Made by a program: the position numbers and the translations under genes | Notes under the pieces: model-generated | Databases searched by the model: none | What the model was told of the DNA's origin: nothing | What the model saw: the letters and a program-made list of their open reading frames with translations, nothing else | Shown here: positions 54,089-55,760 of the stretch, one piece after another | Layout: every line of letters starts with the position of its first letter | How positions within the stretch are numbered: position 1 is the stretch's first letter | Assembly (NCBI GenBank): GCA_016125165.1 | Contig: WGMH01000004.1 | Location: 62,001 to 126,000, forward strand | Direction of reading: 5' to 3' | Source of the DNA: Alphaproteobacteria bacterium | GTDB taxonomy: Bacteria; Pseudomonadota; Alphaproteobacteria; Micropepsales; Micropepsaceae | DNA length: 64,000 bases

Positions 54089-54361
54089 TCAGTGGAAAAT
54101 GGAAAGCCACTCGCGCGCCAGCCTCTGGGCTTCGGCGATCTGACTGGTGTTCATCTCCGCTGCAATCTGCGCCCGCCATCTTTTGGCGATGTCGCTGCCC
54201 TTGATGGCAGCCAGATTGAACCACTTGTGCGCGGCGACGTAATCGACGCCCACGCCCTGCCCCGTGGAATAGGCCAAACCGAGATTGTAAAGCGCGTCAG
54301 CGCGCCCCTGTTTCGCATCCGCTTCGTACTGCGTCAGCGAGTCCACATCGATGCAAGCCAT
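54089..54361 (-). CDS. Sel1-like repeat protein
   Basis: An 89-residue protein with one clear Sel1-type repeat (ADALYNLGLAYSTGQGVGVDY, then VAAHKWFNLAAIKGS) followed by a helix. Sel1 repeats mediate protein contacts. The start MACIDVDSL has GAGGGGAG 8-9 nt upstream. It is convergent with slt (7 bp apart) and preceded, about 147 bp upstream, by a palindrome also found before the H1-like/GST pair. Confidence 0.8.
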   Translation of the reverse strand: MACIDVDSLTQYEADAKQGRADALYNLGLAYSTGQGVGVDYVAAHKWFNLAAIKGSDIAKRWRAQIAAEMNTSQIAEAQRLAREWLSIFH

Positions 54362-54506: not shown

Positions 54507-54526
54507 ATTCGTCCGTATACGGACAT
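54507..54526. promoter_or_regulatory. Candidate operator palindrome upstream of Sel1 gene
   Basis: ATTCGTCCGTATACGGACAT contains the perfect 14-bp palindrome GTCCGTATACGGAC. A near copy lies at 55739-55760. It is about 145 bp before the Sel1 start and just after the end of the GST gene. The site resembles a TetR-type operator in form. Confidence 0.5.
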
Positions 54527-54532
54527 ACACTG

Positions 54533-55375
54533 CTATGAGCGTGCGCGCTGGCCAAACAGAATTTTGCGTGCTGCTTCCTGGGCCTTCGGATCAGCTTGCT
54601 GTGCTTCGCGCAGTTCACGACCAAGCGCCAGGCCGCGCTCGACAGCGGGGCGCGCGCGTTGGCGGCCGATCCATGCCTTTACATGGGGAAATTCGTCGAG
54701 CTTGTGCATGCGGCCTGCACTCAGCGCCCAGCCCAGGCAGGCCATGTCGGCGATGGAATACTCGTCTGCAAGATATTCACGTTTGGCCAATTGCGTGTTC
54801 ATCACGCCAAGAAGGCGGTGCACTTCATCGAGATAGCGCTGGCGGGCATAGTCGTTGCCATCCTTTGCATAGTTGAGAAAGTGGTTCGCCTGTCCTGTCA
54901 TCGGACCGAGGCCCGCCATCTGCCAGAACAGCCACTCATCGACAGCCACGCGATTGCGCTCGTCCTTCGGATAGAACTTGCCGGTCTTGCGCCCGAGATA
55001 TTGGAGGATAGCCCCGGACTCGAAGACCGAAATCGGCTTGCCGCCCGGACCATCAGGATCGACGATAGCGGGCATACGGTTGTTCGGAGCGATCTTCAGG
55101 AAAGCGGGCGCGAACTGCTCACCTTTGCCAATGTGGATGGGGATCATCCGGTAGGGGAGCTTGGCCTCCTCGAGAAAGATGGAGACCTTCCAGCCATTGG
55201 GCGTCGGCCAATAGTAAAGGTCTATGGGGCGCTGCCGAGACCGGGTGGATTTGCTTGCCCCGGAAAAAGAAGAAGGGGAAGCCTTCGCAGACTTCCCCTT
55301 ATTGGGCTTAACCGCGGCTGCCCTGACTGCGCGCTTGCGCTGCGCCCGGGCTGCCGCGGCTTTAGCCTTCGCCAC
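54533..55375 (-). CDS. Glutathione S-transferase with basic H1-like N-terminal tail
   Basis: A 280-residue protein. Residues 1-50 are Ala/Lys/Arg/Ser-rich and low complexity. The GST fold starts at IDLYYWPTPNGWKVSIFLEE (the NGWK loop typical of the YfcG/Ure2-like group), with the cis-Pro segment NNRMPAIVDPDG, ESGAILQYLG, and a helical C-terminal domain (YSIADMACLGWALSA). These enzymes use glutathione as disulfide reductase or peroxidase. The start is GTG at 55375; AAGGG overlapping the TAA of the upstream H1-like gene suggests coupling. The basic tail could bind DNA or acidic surfaces, which is inference. Confidence 0.88.
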   Translation of the reverse strand: MAKAKAAAARAQRKRAVRAAAVKPNKGKSAKASPSSFSGASKSTRSRQRPIDLYYWPTPNGWKVSIFLEEAKLPYRMIPIHIGKGEQFAPAFLKIAPNNRMPAIVDPDGPGGKPISVFESGAILQYLGRKTGKFYPKDERNRVAVDEWLFWQMAGLGPMTGQANHFLNYAKDGNDYARQRYLDEVHRLLGVMNTQLAKREYLADEYSIADMACLGWALSAGRMHKLDEFPHVKAWIGRQRARPAVERGLALGRELREAQQADPKAQEAARKILFGQRARS

Positions 55376-55384
55376 TAGGCGCCC

Positions 55385-55576
55385 TTACGCAGCCGGAGCC
55401 GGGGCGGCCTTCGCTTTGCGCTTCGTTTTGCGCTTGGCTTTCTTCTTCGCCTTTTTGGCCTTCTTGGCCTTCTTGGCGGTCTTTTTGGCTTTGCGCTTCG
55501 TCTTGCGCGCTACCGTCTTCTTCGCGGCCTTAGCGACTTTCTTCTTCGCTTTCCGCTTCTTCGCTTTTGCTGGCAT
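55385..55576 (-). CDS. Lys/Ala-rich histone H1-like small protein
   Basis: A 63-residue protein made almost only of Lys, Ala, Arg and Thr (29 Lys by count), ending APAPAA. The AKKAKKA-type repeats resemble bacterial histone H1-like or AlgP/Hc-type tails that bind DNA non-specifically. The ribosome binding site AGAGGAG 9-10 nt before the ATG is strong, so it is probably real despite its low complexity. It is immediately followed by the GST gene, whose own N-terminus is similar. Confidence 0.78.
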   Translation of the reverse strand: MPAKAKKRKAKKKVAKAAKKTVARKTKRKAKKTAKKAKKAKKAKKKAKRKTKRKAKAAPAPAA

Positions 55577-55738
55577 GTCTAACGACTCCTCTAAGTTTTC
55601 AGGGTCGTGCGACTCGCACCCCCAAAACGTTGAGAAATATGAGTAACTTGCCTTAACGAAGCAATACTACCCCGCATCGGGGGGAATGGGCCTTACCCCC
55701 CGATTTCATAAAACCCGCATTTTTGCTGCATTAAATTC

Positions 55739-55760
55739 ATTCGTCCTTATACGGACGAAT
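55739..55760. promoter_or_regulatory. Candidate operator palindrome upstream of H1-like/GST genes
   Basis: Arms ATTCGTCC and GGACGAAT are exact inverted repeats around TTATAC, with one central mismatch. It shares the core GTCCGTATA(C/A)GGACGAAT, read on the minus strand, with 54507-54526. It is 163 bp before the H1-like ATG and 50 bp past the gatB stop. The region between also has a G-rich stem (CCCCCCGATGCGGGG-like). Confidence 0.5.

Follow-up and report, generated by a model that had tools for sequence, protein, structure and literature searches.

A conserved stem-loop behind a lysine-rich mini-gene appears to be read as part of the basic tail of a Nu-class GST

The locus behind gatB consists of a small Lys/Ala-rich, histone H1-like protein gene with its own leader, followed by the gene of a Nu-class GST with a basic N-terminal tail. 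Both lie on the minus strand of the window, the whole 64,000-nucleotide stretch analysed here, which comes from a 3.04-Mb genome in 14 contigs. The mini-protein gene (55385–55576) opens with ATG and encodes 63 residues, 54% of them Lys or Arg. The GST gene (54533–55375) opens with GTG and encodes 280 residues; residues 1–50 (55226–55375) form a basic tail with 15 Lys/Arg and no Asp or Glu, and a family domain search placed the onset of the GST domain at residue 51. Nine nucleotides separate the Lys/Ala stop from the GST start, and AAGGG (55382–55386, minus strand), by its sequence a possible Shine–Dalgarno element of the GST, overlaps the TAA stop (55385–55387). The original prediction had described this pair, a 63-residue Lys/Ala protein beside a GST with a 50-residue basic tail whose ribosome binding site overlaps the neighbour's stop, and both ORFs and the overlap are present as it described them; the coupling that it drew between the Lys-rich gene and the basic-tailed GST proved real and conserved in a homologue search among relatives. 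The two ORFs share a frame in the window and in two relatives (L009 and L013) but not in three others (L010, L011 and L038). Because the frame of the pair varies among relatives, stop-codon readthrough is not indicated, and readthrough or an ancestral fusion of two in-frame ORFs was rejected. A narrow search confined to open-licence papers returned no description of the locus.

By sequence, the GST appears to be an ordinary Nu-class member. The structures of YfcG (3gx0, E 5.8e-59) and YghU (3c8e, E 1.7e-36) were among its best PDB sequence matches, and Nu-class structures were also among the best matches in a profile search; a further PDB match, 4l8e (E 2.5e-63), is listed with its class unchecked. 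The Thr-Pro-Asn motif described for the Nu class (PMC5892560) is present at residues 58–60 (55196–55204, minus strand) and is invariant across 26 aligned orthologues. The best NCBIfam matches were two GSH-dependent disulfide-bond oxidoreductase models, NF010579 (the YfcG equivalog; 205.5 bits against a curated cut-off of 332) and NF008731 (163.9 bits, cut-off 325); since both scores fall below their cut-offs, the protein is a relative rather than an equivalog, and we file it as Nu class, not as YfcG. Enzymes of the Nu class are characterized by binding two GSH or one GSSG and by disulfide-bond reductase activity. In an AlphaFold2 model, block-mean pLDDT was 45–51 over residues 1–40, where one short helix was drawn (residues 4–11), and mostly at least 88 in the core, with values of 66 in residues 111–120 and 67 at the C-terminus. 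The GST shares its Thr-Pro-Asn motif with the Nu-class enzymes E. coli YfcG (3gx0/5hfk) and YghU (3c8e) and Novosphingobium NaGSTNu, but differs from them in a predicted disordered, basic N-terminal tail of 50 residues, apparently encoded in part by a conserved RNA stem-loop, and in the position of its gene behind gatB and a Lys-rich mini-gene.

Across 96 genomes of the order, all from one family, a GST orthologue was found in 47 (E 1e-85 or better), and every one of these 47 carries a basic tail, 10–98 residues long (median 28), with a Lys/Arg fraction of 0.19–0.48 and a net charge of at least +3, counted from tail starts picked by the analyst. The earlier description of the tail as not usual in its family therefore holds against E. 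coli YfcG and most of the Rhizobiales orthologues seen, but not within its own order. A basic tail is missing from Nu-class paralogues in four genomes (G002, G003, G027 and G028), and the N-terminus of the paralogue in the window's own genome is longer without being strongly basic. No ATG, GTG or TTG lies between the window's GTG and the GST domain; unless translation begins at an unusual codon, the intact enzyme must therefore include the tail. At the position equivalent to this GTG, seven relatives carry ATG. Where 900 nt of DNA were available ahead of the orthologue, the end of gatB was seen there in 42 of 44 loci (not in G071 and G072; three genomes, G022, G103 and G105, were too short for this check). 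At class level, a GST-like TPNG motif was noted no more than 1.2 kb behind gatB in 4 of 21 loci (L238, L247, L249 and L255), none of them with a Lys-rich gene there. The gatB–GST adjacency may predate the mini-gene.

The mini-gene is the more constant part of the locus, as its leader and Lys-rich ORF also occur in genomes lacking the GST. A Lys-rich ORF occupies this place in all 74 family genomes with a long enough contig, with lengths of 21–116 residues and 21–32 in many relatives. The window's mini-protein has no match in Pfam or NCBIfam. A 204-residue Parvibaculum protein at the same place (L042) passes the 40-bit gathering cut-off of HC2 (PF07382) with 102.5 bits, two others stay below it (L142, 30.6 bits; L141, 15 bits), and L211 and L019 gave no match. 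The mini-protein may thus be called H1-like by its composition only; in its Lys/Ala(/Pro) content it resembles HC2, other histone H1-like bacterial proteins and AlgP, but it is only 63 residues long and without a family match, and AlgP has an additional N-terminal domain (PMC9239181).

Upstream of the mini-gene lies a leader (55574–55664, minus strand) recognized by its conservation. It comprises a promoter-like TTGCTT (55659–55664), a 17-nt spacer and CATATT (55636–55641), then a G-rich 5′ UTR and a Shine–Dalgarno sequence, AGAGGAG (55586–55592), before the ATG. Since a strict sigma-70 scan found no promoter at this leader, the candidate promoter is put forward on conservation. RNAalifold returned three pairs with almost no covariation, so a covarying 5′ UTR structure was rejected, and what we claim for the leader is conservation of its sequence alone. 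A model of the leader matched 72 of the 96 genomes, in one copy each except for two copies in G088, and 30 of the 72 had no GST match at the E 1e-85 threshold. Among the 29 of these that were examined (all but G002), 26 were readable downstream and GST-less; the contig ends in G107 and G088, and G081 has the start of a basic-tailed ORF resembling the GST. Counts of presence from draft genomes are lower bounds. In four drafts (G022, G105, G107 and G088) contigs end in or just after the leader or the Lys-rich gene, which may mean that the region assembles poorly. Beyond the order, a class survey of 57 genomes (27 gave no locus; among the other 30, 9 loci could not be placed) located a Lys-rich gene after gatB in 1 of 21 loci with a located gatB end, which leaves a class-wide trait unsupported.

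Behind the Lys/Ala gene, the window holds a predicted stem-loop (55305–55367, minus strand; −41.8 kcal/mol) that lacks a U-tract, lies within the tail codons and is the counterpart of a stem-loop found after the Lys/Ala gene in relatives. It is set 24 nt past the Lys/Ala stop, its stem core GCCGCGG begins 15 nt after the first base of the GTG, and its inner part has a z-score of −4.37, with 0 of 200 shuffles as stable. In a strict scan, at least seven consecutive base pairs around GGCCGCGG...CCGCGGCC were present past the Lys-rich stop in 66 of 73 genomes, and 40 of 1,460 shuffled regions, in which single-base composition only was preserved, reached the same mark. The seven misses were the window itself, whose stem was found by folding, five genomes with variant or unmatched stems by eye (G077, G009, G025, G003 and G062) and G116, which has no clear stem-loop. 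By eye, stem changes are paired: CGCGG/CCGCG becomes CGCGA/TCGCG or CGTGA/TCACG, and CGCAG/CTGCG also occurs. In the GST-less G062 and G063 the element is a textbook terminator with a T-run, and in GST-less genomes generally the stem-loop looks, from its sequence, like a terminator or 3′ element of the Lys/Ala gene. A search for known RNA families gave only a chance-level match to sR40. The stem-loop was also considered as a genome-wide repeat, which was rejected: its pattern had 4 forward matches in the window's own genome and 10 for a reversed control, and the window's own copy, whose 3′ arm ends differently, was not among the 4.

The GST start codon lies on either side of this element. In 14 genomes the GST frame contains the stem-loop and in 32 it does not; in the window and seven genus relatives the start codon precedes the stem core by 15 nt, and the frame spans the stem-loop and goes on into the GST. 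Eight of the 14 in-frame genomes have no other ATG, GTG or TTG from the tail start to the domain. On the GST tree the in/out state changes at least seven times (supported branches alone force seven; shuffled labels, 12.3), and outside the main clade both states occur (in: G069, G071, G072, G074, G075 and G116; out: G064, G066 and G067). For these counts G036 and G105 were reassigned from in to out, having an ill-placed GTG before the stem and a well-placed ATG further down; G015, G074 and G116 were called by eye, and G103 was excluded from the tree count. A loose terminator rule, a GC-rich stem followed by a U-tract, was satisfied in 15/26 GST-less genomes, in 28/33 with the stem-loop outside the frame and in 5/14 with it inside. 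The U-tract is mostly lost when the stem-loop is in the GST frame; in the statistical comparison, 5/14 inside against 26/31 outside, this difference had a Fisher p of 0.004 but was not significant by independent pairs.

Elsewhere in the family, the ATG before the stem recurs in 12 of 18 rows with a GST start further down and in 7 of 11 GST-less rows (the pattern left 29 of 65 rows unplaced), and it opens a micro-ORF reading M(T/N/I/A/L)KAKAA.., of varying length and often ending in or soon after the loop. Six GST-less loci (L193, L199, L202, L208, L209 and L210) were seen to have an ATG micro-ORF of about 10 codons (MTKAKAAV..) with an SD-like sequence just before the stem-loop. This pre-stem micro-ORF may have a function of its own, or it may be what is left of a GST start that was lost. 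At the nucleotide level, the window tail resembled the relatives' stem-loop region beyond all of 200 shuffles in 4 of 51 rows, and 8 of 51 rows had at most 2 of 200 shuffles as similar. Direct similarity is therefore modest, and homology rests on position, start codon, flanks and a chain of intermediate relatives. This comparison supports the reading that the first 24 or so tail codons represent, in translated form, the conserved stem-loop with which the Lys/Ala transcript of relatives ends or is punctuated. What is new is a conserved stem-loop that codes for an enzyme tail and is crossed repeatedly by a start codon; the kinds of element are themselves known. As these genomes show, a protein tail can come and go when a start codon moves across an RNA element that is conserved, with neither duplication nor fusion of domains involved.

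The tail is basic whether the stem-loop lies in the GST frame or outside it. Where the stem-loop is outside the GST frame (32 genomes), tails have a median Lys/Arg fraction of 0.42 and a net charge of +11. Basic tails in either state, together with their absence from the four paralogues, suggest that the charge is selected. We read the tail as translated, disordered and polycationic, which would fit DNA binding and a place at the nucleoid and, equally, RNA, ribosomes or polyphosphate as targets.

The RNA structure of the window's tail exceeds what the protein requires. Over the first 40 codons, 1 of 400 sequences encoding the same protein and drawn by codon usage, and none of 400 codon permutations, was as stable. 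Among the 14 in-frame genomes, at most 20 of 400 sequences were as stable in 4 (G000, G029, G016 and G106) by the codon-usage test and in all 14 by codon permutation. The window carries a second stem-loop within the tail codons (55264–55300, minus strand): a 12-bp stem (55273–55300; −20.3 kcal/mol, 0 of 200 shuffles as stable) is followed by CUUCUUUUU (55264–55272), giving a terminator-like element. Of the two, the first stem-loop has the stem of an intrinsic terminator without the U-tract, and the second has both. The second is present only in the window's species, 1 of the 14 in-frame genomes. Among 5,000 same-protein codon permutations, a U-tract with a stem of at least 12 bp arose in 24 and with one of at least 8 bp in 256; as 14 genomes were examined, these frequencies are suggestive and fall short of proof.

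Terminators in such positions have been studied in E. coli. According to PMC4824070, terminators within the first 100 bp of a coding region retain most of their efficiency, the tR2 terminator having been tested 30 bp past the AUG, and a terminator a few base pairs behind a stop codon is repressed; PMC5021804 describes closely following ribosomes that block terminator hairpins and stalling that exposes them. Like tR2 (PMC4824070) and the terminators in rsxC and narY (PMC5021804), the hairpins at this locus lie near the 5′ end of, or within, a frame where the effect of a terminator depends on ribosomes. Unlike them, the hairpin here is conserved across a bacterial family, forms part of the preceding gene's 3′ side and has repeatedly moved across the start codon, and its role in termination is that of a candidate known from sequence.

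On these grounds we propose, with somewhat more confidence than doubt, that the tail is a translated, disordered polycation whose DNA doubles as an RNA element that limits the GST in relation to the mini-protein. As RNA polymerase transcribes the Lys/Ala gene, it would meet one or both stem-loops before passing nucleotide ~112 of the GST frame. Ribosomes that terminate at the Lys/Ala stop would weaken the first, which lies 24 nt beyond it; the second, with its U-tract ending ~112 nt into the frame, could halt part of the transcripts. Such partial stopping would yield much mini-protein and little GST. The remaining transcripts would be read through, with the GST initiating at its GTG in coupling to the Lys/Ala stop, and the polycationic tail would probably keep a predicted disulfide reductase near a polyanion, be it DNA, RNA or polyphosphate. 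This termination scheme is drawn by analogy with the E. coli data of PMC4824070 and PMC5021804. Against it as a general rule stand the loss of the U-tract in most in-frame genomes and the second stem-loop's confinement to 1 of 14, and the E. coli repression of terminators just past a stop codon bears against the first stem-loop, which lies 24 nt past one. The 15 of 26 GST-less genomes under the loose terminator rule, the modest direct similarity of the window tail to the stem-loop region and the 4 of 14 genomes on the codon-usage test also weigh against it. Were transcription to stop within 55264–55375, translation from the GTG would run onto non-stop mRNAs, from which the ribosomes would have to be rescued; a non-stop mRNA effect of such terminators is discussed in the E. 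coli study (PMC4824070).

Other origins and uses of the tail have to be set against this proposal. The original prediction had suggested that the tail may stem from a duplication of the neighbouring Lys/Ala gene, to which it is adjacent and alike in composition. The likeness goes no further than composition, however: 275 of 500 codon shuffles matched the nucleotide similarity and 839 of 1,000 residue shuffles matched the protein score, and in relatives it is the stem-loop that occupies the tail's position. We give duplication hardly any credence. If selection acted only on the RNA element, a start codon drifting over it would add basic residues as a tolerated, functionless by-product. That would account for the at least seven in/out switches and for the stem-loop being kept where no GST reads through it, but not for tails that are basic in 47 of 47 orthologues, the 32 with the stem-loop outside the frame included, while the paralogues in G002, G003, G027 and G028 have none; we consider it rather unlikely.

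As the original prediction had proposed, the tail could instead take the enzyme to the chromosome, together with its H1-like neighbour, for local oxidative protection. A basic tail in all 47 orthologues of the order, even where the stem-loop is not part of it, agrees with such a nucleoid-bound GST, as does the longer Parvibaculum neighbour that exceeds the Pfam HC2 cut-off. Among 75 named loci, moreover, a basic tail is present in 12 of 13 with a Lys-rich neighbour and in 2 of 62 without (of 80 loci, L075 was left out for want of a usable match and L043, L046, L069 and L081 for short upstream DNA); this association is not significant by independent pairs, however, the tree showing only four changes in the tail and five in the neighbour. 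Lys-rich tails are known on enzymes that act on DNA: actinobacterial TopA has a lysine-repeat C-terminal domain (PMC7398561) and in this resembles the GST, but no DNA substrate is known for the GST, which carries its tail at the N-terminus. A basic tail would suit RNA, ribosomes or polyphosphate equally, and the H1-like protein AlgP associates with polyphosphate granules (PMC9239181). We hold the nucleoid-bound enzyme to be doubtful. Far less probable is leader-peptide attenuation, in which the Lys-rich mini-ORF would sense lysine, the speed of ribosomes on its Lys codons gating the stem-loop before the GST. Many genomes do have the matching arrangement: an ORF of 21–27 residues, over half of which are Lys or Arg, precedes a terminator-like stem-loop, with the GST behind it. 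Yet the ORF is also present in the 26 readable GST-less genomes, nearly all with the stem-loop, it reaches 116 residues in the family and 204 with an HC2 match in Parvibaculum, and inspection by eye revealed no competing antiterminator pairing.

Under the proposal that the tail's DNA doubles as an RNA element, one may go a tentative step further, to a view we think less likely to be right than wrong by a wide measure: that the terminator stem-loop of a nucleoid-protein-like gene has repeatedly been taken into the next frame, where its bases act both as a brake at the RNA level and as a disordered basic tail directing an antioxidant enzyme to a polyanion. If so, enzymes would have a route for gaining polycationic tails from terminators, with expression set by read-through in their own first codons. 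The comparison also brings to light a conserved Lys-rich mini-protein locus of the family, with its own leader. If the hairpin still acts in its coding position, one stretch of DNA would both set gene dosage and encode a possible targeting tail.

The pair is flanked by two copies of a palindrome. The first, TTCGTCCTTATACGGACGAA (55740–55759), lies upstream of the Lys/Ala gene and may be an operator; the second, TTCGTCCGTATACGGACATA (54508–54527), differs by two mismatches and lies just after the GST, ~150 nt upstream of the next minus-strand gene. No match occurred in 100 window shuffles. The upstream copy is the sole exact match in the window's own genome, where a reversed control also gave one match; the other sites there have two mismatches (54508 and one on contig C5) or three. 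The core TCCGTNNACNGA is conserved at the equivalent place in the family leader alignment, upstream of the Lys-rich gene. The downstream neighbour (MAC.DVD..TQ.E), which starts near 54361 on the minus strand in the window, is itself conserved, and the core lies 144–160 nt upstream of it in 4 of 23 relatives scanned (L195, L196, L204 and L207). From their sequence and placement, the flanking palindromes are a possible operator of some regulator. The two-mismatch site on contig C5 (53661–53680) lies just upstream of an ORF that, named by eye, reads like GroEL.
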